Position numbers and translations under genes: made by a program. Positions 51,282-61,939 of a stretch of 64,000 nt of DNA are shown one piece after another. Every line of letters begins with the position of its first letter. Position 1 is the first letter of the stretch. This stretch comes from Planctomycetota bacterium (GTDB lineage Bacteria; Planctomycetota; Planctomycetia; Pirellulales; Pirellulaceae): NCBI GenBank assembly GCA_016872775.1, contig VGZA01000003.1, positions 1 through 64,000 of the forward strand, written 5' to 3'. Below the pieces are notes generated by a model. It made no database searches. It was not told where the DNA came from and saw nothing but the letters and a program-made list of their open reading frames with translations.

Positions 51282-54200
51282 TTATCGGGTCAGTTTTTTC
51301 GGCAGCATGCCGTTGACTTTGTCCAGCCAGCTCGTCGCTTTCGGCTTTTCCGCCGGCGCTGCGGCGGGATCCCGGGCCGCAACACGCGACGGCAACGGCA
51401 CATGCTGTTCGAGTAACTGCGGCCAGTAACTGTCCAGAAATGCCCGGCAATCCCCGATCGCCAGCTTGTTACGCAGAAAGATTGCCTGGGAGATACTCTT
51501 GGACAACTCCAATCCCTCGCTGCGGTCCAGCCACATCCCGTAGACATGAACGTCGTCGATCCAGACTTCCCCCTTTCCCATCAAGTCAAAACCGACACGC
51601 AATTCGTCGCCCGACGACGAAGGAACGCCGTCAATAAACAGTTGATACTCGGTCCACTCCGTGGTCAGCGGTTTTTCCGTCGCACCGATCGTCACATGCG
51701 GGTAGTAATTCTGGCCGTCGTCGACCGCGATGCGCAGTTCCGGTTGCGGCGCGGCGCGGTCGATGCGGATCTTCGCGCCGACGGCAAGCCGACCGGTTCG
51801 CGGCGACGAAAATGGTTCGCTGCGAATCCAGACAACCTCGCCATCACTCTTCAGACGCAAGGAATGCCCGCCGGACGCAGCGGATGCCGAATCGACCTTG
51901 ACCAAGACCCTCGGATCCTGGCGAAACTCCCACCCGGGAATCGCCTCGTTCCTGCCCAAATTCTCAAAGCCAGAGTTGCGCAGCGGCACGATCGGTTTGG
52001 GCGAACGCAGTTCATGGCGGCGGGTGGTTATGTCCTGGAGTCGCTGATCGAGTTCCGTGAGCACCGATTCCTCGACCGAGACTGTCCAGTCACGCACGCG
52101 GACCTCGCCCGAATTCAGTGCCAGCGCTTGCAGGTCGTACGCCTCCATATTCACGGTCCAGCGGATCCCGTTGGCGACCCTTTCGACCGAGGGCGCCGCG
52201 GCGACTCGACCAAGGGGCGTCGCCTTGGCTTCGACCCCCGTGCCCGTCAATTCGATTGCGGCGGTGAGCGGCCAGGGGGAGTCATTCACTGCATAGACGA
52301 ACGAGCGATTTCCGCGATTGAGAAATCGCACGGTGACAGGTTGTCCCCGCGTGGGGATTTGCGCGGCGGCCGTACTGAAACGCTCGGCGGGCAGTTTTCG
52401 AAAAACCTCGAGCTGATTGGCCAGGCTCTCTTCGTTCCCCATCGTCAATGTCCAACCGGTGTCCATGATGAGTTGAGCATCGAGCGTGGCGAGGCTTTGA
52501 ATCAACCGCCGGCGATTCGCTGCGCCGGCGGGCACGATCTGCGATGACAGCCAGGTCTTGGTCCGATCGGCGCCGAACGGACTAACGGCGTCGAATTCCG
52601 GCACCGCGGTGTCGAGGTTCTCCTGGCACCATTCCACAGCCGCGCGAAGTTCGCCCCGGAAGCAGTTGTCGAGTTCCAGCGAAGTTTCGGATTCCAGGTT
52701 CACGCCCTGCGCCGCCACCGAAGTGGTCGGCCCGAATCGTTGCGGCCGAAAGACGACGATCCGCGGGTCCTGTTCCAGCTTTCCCCAGTCCAGGCCAAGT
52801 TCCCGCAGCGCCTCGGGCACCGCCACCTCGCGATTCGTTTCGACCTCGCCCAACAACCGCGGACGCAGCAACTTCTGCATCCGCGCCGTCAGCAGAAGAT
52901 CACAAGTCGACAAGTAAAGTCGGCCATTATGAGTCCGCTCGCTGACCGTCTCGGCCATCCGCTGATAGAGATTTGTGAGCTGCCCGGCGCGCCAGTCAAG
53001 CCACGCCTCGCGCGCATCGCCGTCACAAAAGGCCACCCGCTGTTCAAGCAGCCCCAAGCCGTTTCCCGGAACGCGGACGCCCGCCGCCGATTCGAAACCG
53101 GCAATCGTCGTATCGTCGTAACTGCCACGGCCATCTGGCAGCTGAGCAAAGGTATCGGGCCCCAACTGCAACGCTACTCCGGCCAGACTTGGATGCGATC
53201 CATAGCGGTCCGCGATTTCCTCGACGACGCGCGTCATCACCGCCTGAACGCGTTCGTCCAACGGATTGTAGTAGGGCGCCAATCTGCGATTGGTTCCATG
53301 CAATTCCCGCCAAGACCGCCCTTGAGCGTCGAGCCAGTCCAACCCCGCCGACGAGCCACGCCCGGCGCGACGGAGCTCCTCGAGCTCGGGAATCGGCGTG
53401 GCAAATTGAATCGCCGGAATCAACCGCAGCCCCTCGCGATCGAAGATCCGACAGAGCATCTCCAGGATATCTTTGCGCACCGGGTCCTGACCGGTGCTGA
53501 ATCGCTGCCCCGAATCATAAAGCGTGTTGGGGCCGGTGATTGCCGAGGGATAGAGCGCGCTTCCCTCACACGCGATCGTCACAACCGCCGTGCCGTAGCC
53601 ATGGTACTTGAGATACTCGCTCAACCGTCTGCCCGCTTCGTAAAAGGTCACCCAGTCGCTCAACACCGCGCCCGTCGGACCGTCAATCACGTCGCCACCC
53701 CCCAACGTTTTCTGTACCAGCGGCTTCGTCAAATGCAGCAGATAGCGGCGCGATTCGAATCCGTCCGCGGGCCCCGACATCGCCGGCAGTCGAGCCGGCC
53801 CCGCGGAAATGGCGATCCGCCCACAAATTACCGGCTCGCGATCGCGGCGGTTCGTAAGCAACAACAACGGTGTCTTGGTCCTCGGCCAGAAAATCACCCG
53901 ATGCCTCGCCCAACGCGGTTCCCGATCCGAGGCGGAAGAAACGTCCAAGCCAAAATCGAGGCCACTTACCGGTGCCACTCGGCCCCCCGCATCCGGTTCG
54001 ACAAAACTGATGCCTAACGTCTGTCGCTGATCGGCCGCGTACTCAATTTCCAGGAGGTGCGGTTCGTCCGGTCGCACGACCGGCAGCGGATAGGCCTGCC
54101 AGCTTCCTGGTTCCATCCGCAGGCCGGGGCGGCCCGCATGCTCGACACGCGAAACCTTGGCCGCACCCAGCGGCCCTTTATTGAATCCGGGCAGTTTCAG

Positions 54201-55169
54201 CTGCGGCATTTTCCGCAGCCAGTCCGTCCAACGTGATCCCGTCATGTCCGACACCGCTCCGCTTTGCACAGGATCGATCTCGGCAATCGGCTTCCAACCC
54301 ACACTCTCCTGCCCCTTGCCACGCACATCGAGTTGCGAACGCGGGTGAATCACCACGAACTGAATTCGCCGCTGCGCAATCGGTTTGGCGGGAACCAGCG
54401 AAATGGAATCGGTCAAACGCTTCTTCATCAGGGTAATCACGACGTCAAAGACGCCTTCGTTCCCCGGCGCCGTCACCTGGATCGGTGTCGTGGTGATCCC
54501 GTTCCCGTCCCGATCGACGCGAATCTCCTTCTCCGTGGTCCATAACGGATCGTCCGATCGCGCTCGCGTCAATTGAATCCGGCACCGCAAAGTCGATTCG
54601 CCTTCGACGCCGATTCGATGCGGCAGCAGTCCGAAAATGAACAGCTCGTTTGGCTCCATCACCAACGCATCGCGCGGCAACTCCACACGCAGCCGATCGC
54701 CAGGAGCCCGCTCGATCGAAATTTCATGCCGCTGGTCGTCCATGACGCGGCTCAGCGATTTTCCGATCAAATCCGCCAACGGTACGTCCATGCGCTGCGG
54801 CGATGTCGATCCCTCCCCGTCCGACCACTCCACCGCCAGTATCGCGTCGCGAGGGGCGAGCAGCGTGAAATCGACCGCCGATTCCAGCGACGCACTCGGC
54901 GACATCACGCTCAGCGTCGATTTGTTTACGACGATCGAACCGGGGTCGTCGGGATTGCTGCCCAGGCCGAGCGGTTCGCGGATTTCGCCTTCGGAGATGC
55001 GAGCAGTGACGCGCCAGTTTTTCGGGGTCTCCCCCCCTCCCCAGCGCAGCCGCAGCCGCAGTTCGATCGGATCGACCGCCGCCACCGGCGCGCAGCAAAA
55101 GCAGGCGCTGACCAGGACTGCGACGATCCCCAGCGCAATACAAAATCGCGGACTTCCCTGTCCGACCAT
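51282..55169 (-). CDS. Large exported glycoside-hydrolase-like protein
   Basis: A roughly 1,295-residue protein with signal peptide (FCIALGIVAVLVSACFCCAP). The N-terminal 450 residues are beta-rich and of unknown family. The middle, from about GYGTAVVTIACEGSALYPSA through IFDREGLRLIPAIQFATPIP to SHPSLAGVALQLGPDTFAQL, resembles the TIM barrel of family-10 glycosylhydrolase-like (GHL10) proteins. The C-terminus (RVLVKVDSASAASGGHSLRL; DELRVGFDLMGKGEVWIDDV) looks like a carbohydrate-binding beta-sandwich. Polysaccharide degradation or binding is plausible, not shown. ATG 55169 is preferred to the TTG at 55190 because AAGGA lies upstream. Confidence 0.65.
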   Translation of the reverse strand: MVGQGSPRFCIALGIVAVLVSACFCCAPVAAVDPIELRLRLRWGGGETPKNWRVTARISEGEIREPLGLGSNPDDPGSIVVNKSTLSVMSPSASLESAVDFTLLAPRDAILAVEWSDGEGSTSPQRMDVPLADLIGKSLSRVMDDQRHEISIERAPGDRLRVELPRDALVMEPNELFIFGLLPHRIGVEGESTLRCRIQLTRARSDDPLWTTEKEIRVDRDGNGITTTPIQVTAPGNEGVFDVVITLMKKRLTDSISLVPAKPIAQRRIQFVVIHPRSQLDVRGKGQESVGWKPIAEIDPVQSGAVSDMTGSRWTDWLRKMPQLKLPGFNKGPLGAAKVSRVEHAGRPGLRMEPGSWQAYPLPVVRPDEPHLLEIEYAADQRQTLGISFVEPDAGGRVAPVSGLDFGLDVSSASDREPRWARHRVIFWPRTKTPLLLLTNRRDREPVICGRIAISAGPARLPAMSGPADGFESRRYLLHLTKPLVQKTLGGGDVIDGPTGAVLSDWVTFYEAGRRLSEYLKYHGYGTAVVTIACEGSALYPSAITGPNTLYDSGQRFSTGQDPVRKDILEMLCRIFDREGLRLIPAIQFATPIPELEELRRAGRGSSAGLDWLDAQGRSWRELHGTNRRLAPYYNPLDERVQAVMTRVVEEIADRYGSHPSLAGVALQLGPDTFAQLPDGRGSYDDTTIAGFESAAGVRVPGNGLGLLEQRVAFCDGDAREAWLDWRAGQLTNLYQRMAETVSERTHNGRLYLSTCDLLLTARMQKLLRPRLLGEVETNREVAVPEALRELGLDWGKLEQDPRIVVFRPQRFGPTTSVAAQGVNLESETSLELDNCFRGELRAAVEWCQENLDTAVPEFDAVSPFGADRTKTWLSSQIVPAGAANRRRLIQSLATLDAQLIMDTGWTLTMGNEESLANQLEVFRKLPAERFSTAAAQIPTRGQPVTVRFLNRGNRSFVYAVNDSPWPLTAAIELTGTGVEAKATPLGRVAAAPSVERVANGIRWTVNMEAYDLQALALNSGEVRVRDWTVSVEESVLTELDQRLQDITTRRHELRSPKPIVPLRNSGFENLGRNEAIPGWEFRQDPRVLVKVDSASAASGGHSLRLKSDGEVVWIRSEPFSSPRTGRLAVGAKIRIDRAAPQPELRIAVDDGQNYYPHVTIGATEKPLTTEWTEYQLFIDGVPSSSGDELRVGFDLMGKGEVWIDDVHVYGMWLDRSEGLELSKSISQAIFLRNKLAIGDCRAFLDSYWPQLLEQHVPLPSRVAARDPAAAPAEKPKATSWLDKVNGMLPKKLTR

Positions 55170-55190
55170 GGCGTCCTTGCCTGACAACAA

Positions 55191-55678
55191 CCTCTACGCC
55201 GTCGCTCACCCGTGACACGACGCTTCACGACGCTCGTTCTTCCCGCCAACCGGAGTGGTGTCTCCGCCGAAGGGCGCGGAATTATAAACGCGAGCAGGAA
55301 CGAACTCCTACAGGGAAAATGGTGTGCTAGCGGGGAACGGGGGCAGGGGGTGTTCGGGGGGGATATGGGGAACGGGGCGGACTTGGAGCTTGGCATGCGG
55401 GCTGGTTGTTCGAATCGAGCGGAAATTCCGCAGTAGAGATGGGATGACAAGGCGGTGCGGTACCAGCACCTGTACCCGGTTCGCCGTTTTCACCCTTTGT
55501 GGGGTCAAACTTTAAAAAAAGTCCCCTGCCTCCAATAAAGGCATATCCGGGGCGAATTGTCCATGTCGGCCGCCACGTTGGGTGACGCGGCAAGCGAAAA
55601 CAGAAGCCTCCTTGGACATCGGCGCGGGGCGCCGGGCCGGTCGAGGCGGTTCAGGTTTCCTGTGGGAGGGCTGGTGCC
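55191..55678. other. Divergent intergenic region with G-rich tract
   Basis: About 490 bases between the glycoside-hydrolase-like gene (-) and the coiled-coil gene (+). At 55332-55377 the + strand carries six runs of four or more G with loops of two to five bases (G4, G5, G5, G7, G4, G4), a good G-quadruplex candidate. No gene is credible here. A Shine-Dalgarno (GGGAGGG) precedes the coiled-coil gene. Confidence 0.75.
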
Positions 55679-56482
55679 ATGTTGAAGAAAATGGTGATGG
55701 GGGGAGTGGTGGCCGCGTTGTTTTCCGGGCTGTTTTTCGGCCGAGACGCGGTAAGTTATGTGTCGACCTCGGTTGGATGGGTCAAAGATACGGTCAAGGA
55801 GAGCGTGCCGATTGAGTTCGAGATTCAGCGGGCCAGGAACATGATCAAGGATCTTGATCCGGAAATTGCCCGCAATATGCACCTGATTGCGTCCGAGGAA
55901 ACTCAGGTGGTTTCGTTGAAGGACGAACTGGCCGGTTCGATGAAGCAGCTTGACAAGGACCGCCGCGACATCGTCCGACTGAAGGACGACCTGGACAACG
56001 GCGGAAGTCAATTTGTTTATGCCGGTGTCAGTTACACACAGCGGCAGGTGGAGACCGACTTGAGCCGCCGATTCGAGCGATTCAAGGTCCGGGAGGCGAC
56101 CGCCGAGAAGCTGCAGAAGATTCTAACGGCTCGCGAAACGGGATTGGCCGCCGCCCATGAGAAGCTCAAAGGGATGCAGAGTGCCAAGCGTCAGCTGGAG
56201 GTTGAGGTCGAGAACCTGAAGGCCCGCCTGGAGATGGTGAAGGTCGCGGAATCGACAAGCAACTTCAATTTCGACGACAGCAAGCTTGCCAGGACCCGTC
56301 AGACGATCAAGGAGATCAAGGCGCGAATCGACGTCGCGGAGAAGCTGGCCAGCTCGAACGTTAATCTTCCGGATCAGATCAAGCTGGACGAAGCGGAATC
56401 GCAGAACATCACGGCCGAGATTGCCAGGTATTTCAGCGAACATCCGTCTTCGGACACGATCGTGCGACTGGAAAACAACTAA
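55679..56482 (+). CDS. Membrane-anchored coiled-coil protein
   Basis: A 267-residue protein with one N-terminal hydrophobic segment (MVMGGVVAALFSGLFFGRDA) and long charged helices with heptad character (EIQRARNMIKDLDPEIARNM, LAGSMKQLDKDRRDIVRLKD, EKLKGMQSAKRQLEVEVENL). It has some likeness to PspA-type coiled-coil proteins, but the family is not certain. It starts after a strong Shine-Dalgarno and precedes the FHA gene by 131 bases. It opens the signalling cluster and could serve as a membrane scaffold. Confidence 0.65.
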   Translation: MLKKMVMGGVVAALFSGLFFGRDAVSYVSTSVGWVKDTVKESVPIEFEIQRARNMIKDLDPEIARNMHLIASEETQVVSLKDELAGSMKQLDKDRRDIVRLKDDLDNGGSQFVYAGVSYTQRQVETDLSRRFERFKVREATAEKLQKILTARETGLAAAHEKLKGMQSAKRQLEVEVENLKARLEMVKVAESTSNFNFDDSKLARTRQTIKEIKARIDVAEKLASSNVNLPDQIKLDEAESQNITAEIARYFSEHPSSDTIVRLENN

Positions 56483-56613
56483 GTGCGGGCAAATCGATGA
56501 ATTCCGGCCCTTCCCTTACGGGGAGGGCTGGAGTCGTTTTGCACGTGGTCGATTATCGCCGGTCGGACGGGATCGGCGTCTGAGGTGGCAGACATCGTAA
56601 CAGGGCATGCTGC

Positions 56614-57705
56614 ATGTTTCAGTCGTGGCGATGGAAGATCAAACAGGCCGAAGCTGCCTGTGCGGCCGGCCGAATCGACGAGGCAATGCGGACATTGCGG
56701 CAGGACGAGCTACGTCTGTTTCAGCCCGCCGAGCGCGTCGTCGATCGGTTAGCGGCCGCGTACCGGGCACGGATCGAAACCCGGATATCGGCCAGCAACT
56801 TCGCCGGCGCCTGGGCCGATCTGGAATGTATGGAAGAGCTGAAAGGGCCGACCGAAGAACTGCGTGGCCGGCTTGTCGACGCCGAACTGGCTCAGGCGTT
56901 ACGACGGGTGGAAGCGGGAGACGCTGCCGGAACCGTGGCAATCATCGATGGCCTGGAACGTCGGCAGGCGTGCAGCGACCGGGGGCGACGCATCCGTGAC
57001 GCAGCGCGGCGGGCGGAGGCGGGTGCTCGAGTCACGCTTGGAGGCCGCGCAAAACCATCCGCGTCGCAGAGAATGCCTGTTATGGTTGATCCGCAGGGAA
57101 AATCGAGGGCCACGCCGCGAATCCCCTCCCGGTTCCGGCTCTGGATCGACGCGGTCGGTGGGTACCTGGTTTGCCTTGCCGACCAGGTCGTGCTGGGGCA
57201 GGCGATCCCGGGAAACAAAGTCGATATTCCTATTCTCGGCGATCTCTCGAGGCGGCACGCGATCATCCGACGCCAGGGTGAGGGTTACTTTATCGAGCCG
57301 AATCATGCGGTGAGCGTCGAACGCCAGCCAATCCAGGAGGCGACACTATTGACCGATGGCGACGAAATCGCGCTGGGACCATCGGTTCGGATCCGATTTC
57401 GCAAGCCGCATGTGCTGAGCGCAACCGCCCGGCTTGAATTCGTCAGCCGGCATTCGACGGCCCCGAGTGCCGACGGAATCCTGCTGATGGCCGAATCGTG
57501 CGTGCTGGGACCTCGCTGGCAGAACCACGTTGTCTGCCGCAACTGGGCCGATGATGTGATTCTCTACCGGCAGGACGAACAACTGTATTGCCGTGCCATG
57601 GACTCGATCCAGATCGACGGAGAATGGATGGAGGGACGAGGCAGGGTTGGTGACAACTCGCATATCGCGGGAGCCGATTTCGCATTGAGCCTGGAGGTCA
57701 TTTGA
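56614..57705 (+). CDS. FHA-domain protein
   Basis: A 363-residue protein. An N-terminal helical repeat region (about 1-130; KQAEAACAAGRIDEAMRTLR, NFAGAWADLECMEELKGPTE) resembles tetratricopeptide-like helices. A forkhead-associated domain follows: VVLGQAIPGNKVDIPILGDL with SRRHAIIRRQGEGYFIEP, LTDGDEIALG, i.e. the Gly-Ser-Arg-His phosphothreonine-binding layout is near-complete. The last 100 residues form a second beta-rich, FHA-like region (GILLMAESCVLGPRWQNHVV). FHA domains bind phosphothreonine, so the kinase encoded next is the natural partner. Regulation of the kinase or sigma factor by phospho-binding is inference. Confidence 0.8.
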   Translation: MFQSWRWKIKQAEAACAAGRIDEAMRTLRQDELRLFQPAERVVDRLAAAYRARIETRISASNFAGAWADLECMEELKGPTEELRGRLVDAELAQALRRVEAGDAAGTVAIIDGLERRQACSDRGRRIRDAARRAEAGARVTLGGRAKPSASQRMPVMVDPQGKSRATPRIPSRFRLWIDAVGGYLVCLADQVVLGQAIPGNKVDIPILGDLSRRHAIIRRQGEGYFIEPNHAVSVERQPIQEATLLTDGDEIALGPSVRIRFRKPHVLSATARLEFVSRHSTAPSADGILLMAESCVLGPRWQNHVVCRNWADDVILYRQDEQLYCRAMDSIQIDGEWMEGRGRVGDNSHIAGADFALSLEVI

Positions 57706-57812
57706 TTTGCTCCCGGCGGAACCGAGCGCCAATCACCCCGATCACGCTGACGGCATGCCGTGGACTGTAAAGCGGACGAACCCCTGTATTTGACGGCAAG
57801 GAAACTGGACAA

Positions 57813-59921
57813 ATGGCAAAGTCCGCAGCTACGCTAGAACTTGATCCCAAGCGAGAAATACCCTTGGCCGAAAAGCAACCACGTATCGACGCCATGAAGT
57901 TCGTCTACGCCAGTGGTTCGCGCCCACTTGACGGTTTCACCATTAAGCGGGGCGTGGGTGTGGGGGGATTCGGCGAGGTTTATTTCGCGCTCAGCGACGC
58001 CGGCAAAGAAGTCGCGCTCAAACGGGTCCAGCGCAACTTGGACGTCGAACTCCGCGGGGTCTCCCAATGCCTGAACCTCAAACATCCCAATCTGCTCGGC
58101 CTGTTTGACATCCGTTACGACGGAAAAGGCGACGCCTGGGTGGTGATGGAGTTCGTCAAAGGTGAAAGCCTCCGGGATGTGCTCGAACGCAATCCCCATG
58201 GCATGCCGACCGATCAGGTTGTTCAATGGTTCCAGGGAATCGCCGCCGGTGTGGCCTACCTGCATGACCATGGTATTGTGCATCGCGATCTGAAGCCGGG
58301 AAACATCTTCAGCGATGAAGACCTGATCAAGATCGGCGATTATGGACTTTCGAAGTTCATTTCCTGCAGCCGCCGCAGTGGCCAGACGGAGAGCGTCGGC
58401 ACGTTCCATTACATGGCACCGGAGATTGGCCGGGGCTCGTATGGCAAGGAAATCGACATCTATGCCCTCGGCATCATCCTTTATGAAATGCTGACCGGCC
58501 GGGTGCCGTTCGAGGGCGAATCGAGTCAAGAGATCATCATGAAGCACCTGACGGCGGAGCCCGACTTGAACGGGATCGCCGCCGGGTTTCGTGAGGTGAT
58601 CCGCCGTGCCTTGCTCAAGGATCCCGAGAAGCGGTTTCACGATGTGAGCGAACTGTTGGCGGCGCTGCGCCTCTCCAACTCCCCCGCGGGCGCCCCCCAT
58701 CTGGCTGGCCATTCCTCGAAGCCGGAAGTTCTTTTCATCAACGATTCGAACCCCGACATCGTTTTCGGCCCCCTGCGCCACGCGGATCGATCGTCGGCAG
58801 CGGGGTTGGGGGCGGCGGTGGTGGCGGGCCCGTCTGCGAACCGAACGGCCGCCGCCGGGCCCGGAACGGGTGGAGCAGCTGCTTTTGCCGACCGTCCACC
58901 GGTCGTCACCCGACCTTCGCCGCCGGAACCGGTCGCGGCAGCGATTGCCGAGCGATTCCAGGCGGCGCGGCGCTGGTGGAACGAATCGAATCTTGCCGCT
59001 CCTGTCAAGGTCGTGCTGATGGTGGTGTTCAGCATCCTGGCGGTGGCGAATATCGGGATCATTTTCCCGATCGCGGTCGTATTGGGTGCAGTCTACCTGG
59101 TCTATCTGGGGATACGTTCGATCGTTCTGGCGATGTCGGCGCCCAGTCAGCCCGCAAGGGGCCCAGCTGCCCGGGCCGATCTGCATCGACGGGCGGGCCC
59201 CACGCCTCCGCCGCAGGCGTTTCCGGCATCGGCGAAGCAGCGTAAGCGGCAACAGGCCGAGGCAGTTCGTGCGGCGCTCGCCCAACGGTCCCCCCGCGAC
59301 AAATTCAGCGAGCTGGTCGGGTCGCTGCTCGGCGCGGCCACGGTTTCCGCCGTGCTCTCGTTCGTCGGACTGTTAATTGGCGAGCAACCGATCGACGGTT
59401 CGGTGCAGACCTGGTCGGTATACGCCTGGCTGGTCGCCACGACTACGACCGGCGCCTGGATCGTGCTGACCTTGAGCAAATTTTGGGAGGCATCCGCGGG
59501 CGATGAAATGCGGCGTCGTTTCACGATGCTCGTCGCCGGCCTGGCGCTCGGTGGAATCGCGTTCGCGCTCCACCAATTCCTGGGAATGGGGTCACTGTCG
59601 GCACCGTCGCCGCTTCTGGTTTCGAAGGCTCTGTTGTTCCCCTCGTCAGGAACGTCGGCAGCGCAACTCCCCACCTACCTCCTGTACTTTGGTGCTTTGT
59701 TTGTGTTGCTTCGCTGGTGGAAACAGGCGGACCCGCTGCGCGGTTCGCGGCTTAGCCTGTGGGACACCGCGGTCTGTGTGCTGTTCGCATACCTGGGCAC
59801 GGAGATCTGGCAATCGTTCCACCCCTGGGGGTTATTGGCGGCTGGAACGACGTCACTCGCCGTGCAGTTGGCCGCTCCTTGGGTCCCGCCCAAGCAGCGC
59901 GCGGTTGCGCCGGTCGCCTGA
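57813..59921 (+). CDS. Membrane serine/threonine protein kinase
   Basis: A 702-residue kinase. Catalytic domain (about 40-300): glycine loop [10 protein letters not shown] (48-56), Lys70 in EVALKRVQ, catalytic HRDLKPGN (157-164) and DYG at 176-178 in place of the usual DFG. Then come a Pro/Ala-rich linker (about 310-370) and C-terminal membrane segments ([36 protein letters not shown], and further helices around 505-690). It is a membrane-anchored Hanks-type kinase with multiple C-terminal helices, unlike PASTA kinases. It lies between the FHA gene and the sigma-factor genes, so signalling from the membrane to transcription is plausible (inference). Confidence 0.9.
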
Positions 59922-60000
59922 TCCAGGCCGTAACTTGCCGCACCGCAAGCACCCCCAATAATCCGCCTCGACGGACGAAAAACCAGCAGGAGATACTACG

Positions 60001-60807
60001 ATGACCGCTTGCACGACGCCAACCGAACTCGGACCTCCGACGGAAGATGTTCGCCAGTCAATACGCAGGTTTGTGCAGGGGATTTGTGGTCTATCCAGCC
60101 TTGTTTTTGGCTGTGTCATCGCCGTCATGGGCCTGGCATGTCTTGAAAGGGGCCACGCCGACGACGCCGCGATTCCGGTCTCGACCAGCAACGGAACGGT
60201 TGACGAATTCCGCCCGGATGCCGACGAGGTGGCGCTGCGGGAACGGATGAACAAGACGATTGCGGCGCGACCGGAATGGGTGAAGGAGTCGTCCCAGGCT
60301 GCCGCCGGAGGCGAATCGGTTTTGATCAGTTCCGGGCCGTTTGTGACGGCTGCGGAGGCGAGGCAGGCGTTGGCGGAGAAACTCGAACAGGCGACGGCCG
60401 ACTACCTTGTCGACCTGCTCGGAAACCCCTTAGCGCCGAAAATACTCCGCTACGACGCGAAATATATTCAGCGGCATCTGGTGCCCTCGGACCGCTGGTA
60501 CGACGAGTCCCAGTGGTTTTCGGTCGGAGAAATGAGGCAGTCGTACGCGTTACTTGAATTCGATGCCGATTTCCGCGAGGAAGCCCAGCAGCGCTGGCAG
60601 CGGGTTGTCACCACCAGCCGCCTGGGGCAGATCGGTCTGGGGTTTGCAGGTTTGTTTACGTTCTTGTTGATGGTCTTTGGTTACCTGCGCGCGGACACGG
60701 CAACACGCGGCTACTACTCGAAGCGCTTGCAGTTTGCCACGGCGGTGGCGATACTGGGGTTACTTGTCGCGGGCTTGATGATCACCAAGCATATTCAATG
60801 GCTATGA
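60001..60807 (+). CDS. Membrane protein of the kinase/sigma cluster
   Basis: A 268-residue protein with strong AGGAG before the ATG. One N-terminal hydrophobic segment (LSSLVFGCVIAVMGLACLER), a helical soluble region (VTAAEARQALAEKLEQATAD; FREEAQQRWQRVVTTSRLGQ) and two C-terminal membrane helices (LGFAGLFTFLLMVFGYL; TAVAILGLLVAGLMI). No family is recognised. It ends with TGA overlapping the sigma-factor start (ATGA at 60804-60807), so the two are translationally coupled. A sensor or anchor for the sigma factor is an inference. Confidence 0.65.
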   Translation: MTACTTPTELGPPTEDVRQSIRRFVQGICGLSSLVFGCVIAVMGLACLERGHADDAAIPVSTSNGTVDEFRPDADEVALRERMNKTIAARPEWVKESSQAAAGGESVLISSGPFVTAAEARQALAEKLEQATADYLVDLLGNPLAPKILRYDAKYIQRHLVPSDRWYDESQWFSVGEMRQSYALLEFDADFREEAQQRWQRVVTTSRLGQIGLGFAGLFTFLLMVFGYLRADTATRGYYSKRLQFATAVAILGLLVAGLMITKHIQWL

Positions 60808-61517
60808 TCGAATGTCGCCGGGCGGCAGTATCTCGCAATGCGAACCCCGATATGACCGCCTCCAACGACAGGACCGCCTCCAACGAAGCCGACCGCCAGC
60901 TTGTGGAGCGCATCCGCCACCGCGAGGAAAATGCGTGGCGGGAACTTATTTCGCGATTTGAGGGCCGGCTGCTGGCGTTTGTCGAAAGCCGACTTCGCGA
61001 TCGGACGACCAGTGAGGATATCGTCCAGGATACGTTCGTCGGCTTCCTGAACAGCTTGCCGAATTACGACTGGCGGCGGCCTCTGGAGAGCTATCTGTTC
61101 TCGATCTGCGCCTACAAACTCACGGATCACTTGCGACGCGAAGGGCGCCGTCCGAGTATCCCGTTTTCCGCCGGAAGCAATTCCAGCGGCGAGTGGGGGC
61201 TGCCGGATTCAGCCGCACGCGCCGCCAGCAGTATCGCCCGCAGTGGCGAACAGCAGAGACTCGAGGAAAAAGCGCTCGTCGACGCCATACGCGAGCAGAT
61301 CCAGCGGTGGCGCGAGCGCGGCGAATGGATCAAACTGCAGTGCCAGGAGCTGCTGTTCGTGCGAGGTTGGGCCAACAAGGACGTGGCGACGCAACTCGCC
61401 ATCAGCGAACAGCAGGTGGCCAACTTCAAGTTCGATTTTATCGCTCGGATGAGTTCCGCCGTACGGAAGCAGGGCCTGAACTCCGACATTTTTCCGGAAC
61501 TCTATCCGACCGAATAG
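60804..61517 (+). CDS. ECF-like RNA polymerase sigma factor
   Basis: A 237-residue sigma-70-family protein. Region 2 is clear (AWRELISRFEGRLLAFVESR, TTSEDIVQDTFVGFLNSLPN, YLFSICAYKLTDHLRREGRR), and region 4 includes LFVRGWANKDVATQLAISEQ and QVANFKFDFIARM. The domains are separated by a Ser/Gly-rich spacer. It is longer than classic ECF factors. ATG at 60804 overlaps the previous stop; 60798 or 60852 could also start it. The anti-sigma-like gene follows 11 bases later. Partner and target promoters are unknown. Confidence 0.85.
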   Translation: MIECRRAAVSRNANPDMTASNDRTASNEADRQLVERIRHREENAWRELISRFEGRLLAFVESRLRDRTTSEDIVQDTFVGFLNSLPNYDWRRPLESYLFSICAYKLTDHLRREGRRPSIPFSAGSNSSGEWGLPDSAARAASSIARSGEQQRLEEKALVDAIREQIQRWRERGEWIKLQCQELLFVRGWANKDVATQLAISEQQVANFKFDFIARMSSAVRKQGLNSDIFPELYPTE

Positions 61518-61528
61518 CAGGAATCGCC

Positions 61529-61939
61529 ATGCCGCGGATTTTCACCGAACTGGAACTCGAAGCCTATCTTGACGAGGCGCTTGCCCCCGCGCAAATGACG
61601 GAGATCGAGGAAGCGGTTCGCAACGACCCGCGACTGGTCCAGCAGCTCTCCACGCTCAACGCCCGCCGCGACGCCGGGGTACATTCCCTCGGCGAAATCT
61701 GGCGCCGCCATCGGCTGAGTTGCGCGACCCGCGAACAGCTTGGCAGTCTACTGCTGGGAGTACTGACCCCCGAGTTTGCCGAGTATTTTCGGTTTCATAT
61801 CGATGTCGTCGGCTGCCGCTACTGCTACGCGAACCTGGCCGACCTGCAACGTCAGCAGCGGGAGGCCGCGTCGTCGACGACGACGCGCCGCACGCGCTAC
61901 TTCCAATCCAGCGCCGGGATGCTCCGCGAAAAGCGTTGA
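61529..61939 (+). CDS. Anti-sigma-factor-like CxxC protein
   Basis: A 136-residue protein that starts MPRIFTELELEAYLDEALAP and carries SLGEIWRRHRLSCATREQLG and FRFHIDVVGCRYCYANLADL. The GCRYC (CxxC) with nearby His suggests a zinc-finger-like site as in ZAS-type anti-sigma factors, although there is no membrane segment. The N-terminal EAYLDEALAPAQMTEIE helix resembles short zf-HC2 type starts. It lies directly after the sigma gene (11 bases, AGGAA before the ATG), the usual place for its regulator. Anti-sigma action is inferred. Confidence 0.7.
   Translation: MPRIFTELELEAYLDEALAPAQMTEIEEAVRNDPRLVQQLSTLNARRDAGVHSLGEIWRRHRLSCATREQLGSLLLGVLTPEFAEYFRFHIDVVGCRYCYANLADLQRQQREAASSTTTRRTRYFQSSAGMLREKR

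Follow-up and report, generated by a model that had tools for sequence, protein, structure and literature searches.

Here we present a six-gene module from a Planctomycetota bacterium of the family Pirellulaceae, encoded in a window of 64,000 nucleotides, which is the whole stretch of DNA analysed and lies on contig VGZA01000003.1 (C3) of a 5.85 Mb genome (G000). The genes specify, in this order, a coiled-coil protein (gene 1), an FHA-domain protein (gene 2), a Ser/Thr kinase (gene 3), a membrane protein (gene 4), a sigma factor of the extracytoplasmic function (ECF) type (gene 5) and a candidate anti-sigma factor (gene 6). That the six genes have been inherited together as a signalling unit, beyond a chance neighbourhood, is well supported. 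The analysis shows co-inheritance of the genes, a fusion of the sigma gene with gene 6 in some classes, a weak likeness of gene 6 to anti-sigma factors, intact kinase residues, and a promoter-like motif concentrated before gene 1. An original prediction, made from the sequence of this stretch, had proposed that six neighbouring same-strand genes form one circuit running from membrane to promoter. All six open reading frames (ORFs) are present on the plus strand, and the circuit is well supported by the order of the genes, by their joint loss, by the fusion of two of them and by a shared promoter.

The explanation that we favour, and to which we give an even chance, is that a kinase controls an ECF sigma/anti-sigma pair which transcribes the kinase's own operon. 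Genes 1 to 4 would form a membrane-linked sensing block, made up of the coiled-coil protein, an FHA adaptor, a transmembrane kinase and the gene 4 membrane protein, the last with an extracytoplasmic domain; gene 5 would supply the ECF sigma factor, and gene 6 the soluble anti-sigma factor cognate to it. An envelope signal would reach the kinase through the membrane part of the kinase, protein 4 or both, and the kinase would phosphorylate either the anti-sigma factor or the conserved linker of the sigma factor. Once freed, the sigma factor would transcribe from the promoter CCAA(G/T)AT-N13-GCGAAT before gene 1 and so increase the amount of its own signalling block; a gene of the AIM24 family would be a further target in some genomes. 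The phosphorylated protein, the direction of the effect, the pairing of sigma factor with promoter and the identity of the signal are steps that we infer.

Co-inheritance and gene order

The close-relative set comprised 60 genomes, our own and 59 relatives. The sigma gene, gene 1 and gene 6 were each found in 57 of them, and the same three genomes (G015, G038 and G043) lacked all three; in these the best kinase match reached at most 113 bits, against at least 314 bits in all eight module-bearing genomes tested. Gene 6 was single-copy throughout the set, and further sigma matches were weak (52 bits or less). Four genomes carry a second, weaker copy of gene 1 with 25-33% identity (L110-L113, in G046, G021, G022 and G052); two of these four copies have an FHA-like match about 2.2 kb downstream and possibly belong to a paralogous module.

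Fifty-six sigma loci were fetched among the close relatives, three of them (L082, L089 and L093) cut by contig ends, which left 53 with enough sequence. In 42 of these the kinase gene lies upstream of the sigma gene and shares its strand. Three genes that flank the module in the window served as a control: two occurred in none of the 56 sigma loci and the third, a downstream ORF of 445 amino acids, in three. Where gene 1 stands apart from the sigma gene or on a different contig (L094-L106), genes 1, 2 and 3 keep their order and strand in all 13 loci, and gene 4 was detected in five of them. One genome (G003) has gene 1 alone (L107), with genes 2 to 4 staying beside the sigma gene (L042). The sigma profile also matched named records, labelled Pirellulales, Pirellulaceae, Planctomycetaceae or simply Planctomycetota, and in Blastopirellula marina (L211) and Adhaeretor mobilis (L215) all six genes lie near the sigma locus. 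The proposed check for scattering of the genes in relatives, which would have counted against the circuit, came out mostly in its favour, though a sizeable share of genomes has the sigma gene away from the kinase block. At two loci (L050 and L056) a different protein, with an N-terminal sequence that looks FHA-like by eye, is encoded directly upstream of an unlinked sigma gene, the kinase block being elsewhere.

Depth across the phylum was assessed in a sample of 294 genomes. With thresholds preset, 128 genomes had sigma-like matches (many by region 2 only), 59 had gene 1 and 51 had gene 6. A cut-off for full-length sigma factors of at least 98 bits, set afterwards at the gap above matches of 87 bits or less, retained 51 genomes, exactly the same 51 that have gene 6. 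At a stringent cut-off of at least 148 bits, with the next lower match at 109, gene 1 was present in 42 genomes, 41 within the sigma/gene 6 set and one outside it (G124). For a family of another order of the same class (f21), loci were taken from 14 of 16 genomes (G107 and G238 left out), and genes 1, 3 and 4 precede the sigma gene in eight of the 14.

From other classes, loci were taken in 24 of the 30 genomes with a full-length sigma factor (G151, G201, G240, G286, G297 and G316 left out), in sets of six and 18. The kinase gene is just upstream of the sigma gene in 23 of the 24 (6/6 and 17/18). An FHA-like gene is present in 6/6 and 12/18, three of the 12 being weak matches (26-49 bits) and some of the loci without one being cut by contig ends. 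In 12 of the 24 loci (5/6 and 7/18) the sigma factor and gene 6 are fused, and in the unfused loci gene 6 is directly downstream of the sigma gene or overlaps it. Gene 1 is near in 4/6 and 13/18, and in 11 of those 13 it follows gene 6. Gene order has changed across classes while linkage has persisted. Two further loci (L262 in G124 and L263 in G138) hold gene 1 homologues without this sigma factor in the fetched stretch; at L263 a kinase gene is directly downstream, so the sensing block may also work alongside different partners.

A promoter-like motif before gene 1

Motif discovery was carried out by counting all pairs of 4-mers, at spacings of 12-21, in upstream regions. The pair AAGA-N15-CGAA occurred before gene 1 in 51 of 88 regions, against five or fewer for any pair in one base shuffle, and before the kinase gene in 15 of 90; the consensus before gene 1 is CCAA(G/T)A(T/A)-N13-(G/C)CGAA(T/A). 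A profile was refined on 85 regions, with the second gene 1 copies left out and the window added. It found a site in all 85, with scores of 11.8-36.8 against a shuffle maximum of 8.7, these regions being the training set too and some species possibly counted twice. In the held-out family f21 a profile site precedes gene 1 in eight of eight loci (scores 17.8-31.7). The site in the window scores 20.4, well above that shuffle maximum, and its -10-like element ends about 121 nt before gene 1. In a specificity scan of 2.59 million positions (76 loci, both strands), 53 sites scored at least 20. Of these, 45 precede gene 1 and two the kinase gene, three fall between other module genes (by position), and three are elsewhere. 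Passages of PMC8103513 give AAC and CGT as the hallmarks of known ECF promoters, and the -10 element of the gene 1 motif likewise starts with CG. Sharing of this promoter suggests that the unit is self-activating.

In our own genome a relaxed form of the pattern had 22 matches, several inside genes, against four in a reversed control, and the gene 1 site ranked second among them by profile score. One of the 22 stands upstream of an AIM24-family gene (Pfam E 8e-74). Among AIM24 orthologues of other genomes, five of 23 have a site of at least 16 bits in the 500 nt before the aligned start, against about 0.3 expected from the site rate in the 2.59-million-position scan; the orthologue of G015, which lacks the module, has no upstream site of at least 16 bits. 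Other candidate targets in our own genome are a 45-amino-acid membrane peptide, a 468-amino-acid secreted-looking protein and a 265-amino-acid membrane protein, the last with a promoter-like site (G000:C116:1768-1792, L315; score 16.7) 57 nt upstream, a stretch that looks repetitive and beta-like by eye, and no Pfam family. The exact pattern CCAAGAT-N13-GCGAAT was rejected as a definition of the regulon: it matches in 36 of 60 genomes, with a reversed control of zero in every one of the 60, and does not match in our own, which has CCAATAA. It was discounted because many of the 30 sites fetched sit inside long open frames, where codon use is a possible cause, and because one of the stronger sites (26.4 bits) belongs to G015, a genome without the module. 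Upstream of sigma genes, the pairs TTGC-N19-GATA and TTGC-N21-TACT occur in 29-31 of 129 regions and perhaps mark a housekeeping promoter.

Products of the six genes

The identity of gene 5 is clear in its first part. Region 2 matches Pfam Sigma70_r2 (E 2.6e-12) and solved ECF sigma factors among PDB sequences (best E 2.5e-14), and the protein passes the NCBIfam sigma70-ECF model TIGR02937 over residues 46-208 (51.0 bits, cut-off 42.9). Region 4 is divergent, with no Pfam region 4 match in the window protein and one below the cut-off in a fused homologue (L238, E 0.0033). The original prediction had the gene overlap gene 4 by ATGA. This is doubtful, as it depends on the start chosen (60798/60804), and many orthologues begin closer to an internal ATG at 60852.

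Gene 6, whose ORF starts at ATG 61529, had been described as a CxxC anti-sigma-like protein. A weak likeness to class I anti-sigma factors holds up (Pfam zf-HC2, below cut-off, E 0.0017), and the conserved site is C-H-CxxC rather than CxxC alone: all 26 aligned sequences share eight invariant residues, including C64, H89, C95 and C98 (numbered without the first Met), which place an Hx5CxxC spacing in the second half. Class I anti-sigma factors (zf-HC2/ZAS) combine a helical anti-sigma domain with an HxxxCxxC zinc motif. One gene 6 unit (L243) has an extra HxxxCxxC in its first half, which suggests tandem anti-sigma units, with the ligands of the first unit lost in the other sequences. Gene 6 is probably a tandem of two units of the class I anti-sigma kind, and a conserved metal-type site lies in the second of them.

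A structural model of gene 6 had a mean predicted local distance difference test score (pLDDT) of 79.9 and a predicted template modelling score (pTM) of 0.43. Of 14 Foldseek rows, ten came from entries of RslA, RsiW or ChrR complexes, at poor E values (1.9-7.6) and with the chain left unspecified in the title of the RslA entry. VIA gave RsiW at Z 6.4 (root-mean-square deviation, rmsd, 6.5; 69 aligned), RslA at Z 5.9 (5.0; 56) and ChrR at Z 4.4 (1.9; 51). A search of PDB sequences with the gene 6 profile returned one match, to an unrelated enzyme (E 0.017). The model weakly resembles class I anti-sigma factors, and fold likeness alone is insufficient; it is the fusion to the sigma factor and the co-occurrence with it that make the gene 6 product a candidate for binding and inhibiting the sigma factor.

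The kinase domain of gene 3 is unambiguous (Pfam Pkinase, E 1.8e-49). The catalytic K, HRD-D, DxG-D and APE residues are invariant in 71 of 71 aligned kinases, so that the residue set of an active kinase appears intact, and the DYG noted in place of DFG turned out to be typical of this family, with Y in 62 of the 71. By hydropathy the window kinase has three membrane segments and 56 orthologues have 2-11. Protein 1 has weak coiled-coil matches in Pfam, all below cut-off, and is probably anchored in the membrane at its N-terminus, judging by a hydropathy segment there in 51 of 58 aligned copies; the window copy has none at the threshold used. The FHA domain of gene 2 spans residues 193-255 (Pfam, E 5.8e-7). 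Protein 4 has three membrane segments by hydropathy and a single chance-level Pfam match (0.026). Its model (mean pLDDT 82.0) places a helix over residues 15-47 ahead of an alpha/beta domain and ends in two long helices, and structure searches gave no confident match for it; an MscS-type channel (on the membrane helices, Z at most 7.9, rmsd 1.8, 56 aligned) and an Lpp20 fold (Z 7.1, rmsd 3.9, 101 aligned) were both too weak to name the fold.

Table 1. The module and its upstream site, in window coordinates
Feature	Position	Strand	Basis or detail
ECF-type promoter-like site	55526..55567	+	-35-like CCAATAA 55532-55538, -10-like GCGAAT 55552-55557
Gene 1, coiled-coil protein, 267 aa (amino acids), probably with N-terminal membrane anchor	55679..56482	+	orthologue searches
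Gene 2, FHA-domain protein, 363 aa	56614..57705	+	Pfam FHA, conserved residues
Gene 3, Hanks-type Ser/Thr kinase (DYG), 702 aa, C-terminal membrane helices	57813..59921	+	Pfam, alignment, hydropathy
Gene 4, membrane protein, alpha/beta domain (~100-188) between membrane helices, possible sensor	60001..60807	+	model, hydropathy
Gene 5, sigma factor of the ECF type, with a possible true start at 60852	60798..61517	+	Pfam, NCBIfam, PDB sequences
Gene 6, soluble, probably tandem anti-sigma-like protein	61529..61939	+	alignment, fold search, fusions

Upstream of the module, on the minus strand, a neighbouring ORF of 1302 amino acids (51282-55190) has a GHL10 glycosyl-hydrolase-like match just below threshold and is found in none of the 56 sigma loci.

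Alternative explanations and known systems

A number of observations weigh against the favoured explanation, and the rival explanations build on several of them. The most viable rival, which we nevertheless consider unlikely, is that the kinase phosphorylates the sigma factor directly, as in EcfP/EcfK, at the linker or in region 2.2, and that gene 6 is a co-factor or zinc sensor instead of an inhibitor. The linker between regions 2 and 4 does contain a near-invariant serine (S144 in 73 of 74 sigma factors, with R148 in 67 and S149 in 66), and EcfK is activated by linker phosphorylation according to passages of PMC13147305. S144 could also be a helix cap, and partly similar Ser/Thr-Pro stretches, seen by eye, at the linker of ECF paralogues in our own genome weaken its reading as a target; we treat it as a candidate, not as a proven kinase site. 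The DAED-like motif points both ways. Its position 1 is non-acidic in 70 of 74 sigma factors, which counts for direct phosphorylation. On the other side, Ser/Thr is absent from positions 1-2 in 25 of the 74, and 73 of them retain an acid at positions 3-4, unlike the ECF43 motif, so that an EcfP-type switch is not required and is rejected as a general mechanism. The likeness of gene 6 to anti-sigma factors, weak as it is, also speaks against this rival. That phosphorylation controls the sigma factor by one route or another is a plausible prediction.

Distinctly less probable is that two separate systems, genes 1-4 and the sigma/gene 6 pair, often adjoin, with another sigma factor reading the gene 1 promoter and the kinase having other targets. 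The two parts are indeed unlinked in part of the genomes, and gene 6 is near the sigma gene in 33 of the 56 close-relative loci, once on the opposite strand; the kinase gene adjoins the sigma gene in 43 of 80 named loci, some on short contigs; and in family f21 six of 14 sigma genes have none of genes 1-4 alongside and none of the 14 has gene 6 beside it. In the phylum sample, ten genomes have the sigma factor and gene 6 without gene 1, and 17 genomes without a full-length sigma factor have weak gene 1-like matches (69-109 bits). The promoter data can also be read in this sense. Exact AAGA-N15-CGAA is rare before sigma genes (two of 129 regions) and gene 6 (two of 62), just one of the 24 other-class loci has a site of at least 13 bits right before gene 1 (L240, 17.1), and G015, which lacks the module, has a strong site (26.4 bits) 155 nt before a 304-amino-acid ORF (L287), which leaves room for the motif to be used by a further factor as well, or to be a chance occurrence. 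Two separate systems would not readily account for the co-loss of both parts in the same three genomes, or for the kinase gene again adjoining the sigma gene in other classes with different gene orders.

The least probable rival, and a very doubtful one, is that gene 6, as a zinc or metal protein, plays no anti-sigma role, the fusion being a sigma factor with a metal-sensing tail as in CorE: passages of PMC8999054 describe Cys-rich tails in CorE-like ECF factors, the fused unit keeps C-H-CxxC and the anti-sigma fold matches fall on the other half, while it is the matching of that first half to anti-sigma folds, and the HxxxCxxC within it in L243, as in class I anti-sigma factors, that stand against it. 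The fold matches do cover only the first half of gene 6 (about residues 1-75), and VIA rows unrelated to anti-sigma factors reach Z 4.8 with the model; it was this restriction to the first half, together with the strong G015 site, that lowered our confidence in the kinase-controlled sigma/anti-sigma pair to the even level given above. The role of gene 2 is also less secure than proposed. The phosphothreonine reader of the original prediction stands insofar as there is an FHA domain with most binding residues kept (among 63 aligned, G195 in 63, S212 in 50, R213 in 48 and H215 in 51); the GR arginine is Gln in 45 of the 63, and Pfam detected the domain in three of eight further homologues tested and missed it in all five from other classes.

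By analogy, the parts of the module resemble PknB–RshA–SigH and PknS–EcfK. PknB is a general kinase, and we know of no FHA, coiled-coil or gene 4 partners in the PknB–RshA–SigH circuit; here, in contrast, the genes are inherited together, and the kinase block lies behind a shared promoter. Both systems have a Hanks kinase and an ECF sigma factor; RshA is a zinc anti-sigma factor, and gene 6 is a candidate for one. Passages of PMC13147305 and PMC8999054 describe how, in Mycobacterium tuberculosis, phosphorylation of the anti-sigma factor frees SigH. Those of PMC13147305 describe PknS–EcfK and PknT–EcfP (ECF43), in which a membrane Hanks kinase is encoded beside an ECF sigma factor, as here, and in EcfK the linker is phosphorylated. 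The two would be precedents for the favoured mechanism, with the kinase acting on a zinc anti-sigma factor in the first and on a sigma linker in the second (PMC13147305). ECF43 has non-charged DAED residues, unlike the acid at positions 3-4 here, which does not fit ECF43 membership; and the present module, unlike PknS–EcfK and PknT–EcfP, has an anti-sigma-like protein, separate or fused.

The ECF59 and ECF60 groups were defined in planctomycetes. Passages of PMC8103513 place them near a Ser/Thr kinase gene, as here, and describe them as dependent on a serine that replaces the acidic motif, a point in which the present sigma factor would differ. CorE and ECF238 have a Cys-rich C-terminal extension with a metal site (passages of PMC8999054). 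The fused form of the module similarly joins a metal-site tail to an ECF sigma factor, and differs in that the tail unit is a separate gene in the window's order and in another order of its class. In a stress study of Rhodopirellula baltica, passages of PMC2754498 report the ECF factor RB138 as induced together with the Ser/Thr kinase RB140. The combined circuit had been put forward as new. Kinase-ECF coupling as such is known, since kinase-linked ECF groups have been published (PMC8103513, PMC8999054 and PMC13147305), and no description of the six-gene module was found among the passages returned by a full-text search of the open-licence literature.

The broadest interpretation, which we offer tentatively, is of a dedicated pathway of the Planctomycetota that predates the divergence of several classes. 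The kinase and the FHA adaptor would relay an envelope signal to a sigma/anti-sigma pair, which in some classes would be a single self-inhibiting fusion protein, and the freed sigma factor would then produce more of its sensing block along with membrane-related targets, AIM24 among them. To our knowledge, planctomycetes have many kinases and ECF sigma factors and few worked-out circuits. The depth of its conservation singles this one out, with a sigma factor, a candidate anti-sigma factor, a candidate kinase and a precise promoter that make each step testable, and the dedicated pathway, if true, could be this phylum's equivalent of an envelope stress response.

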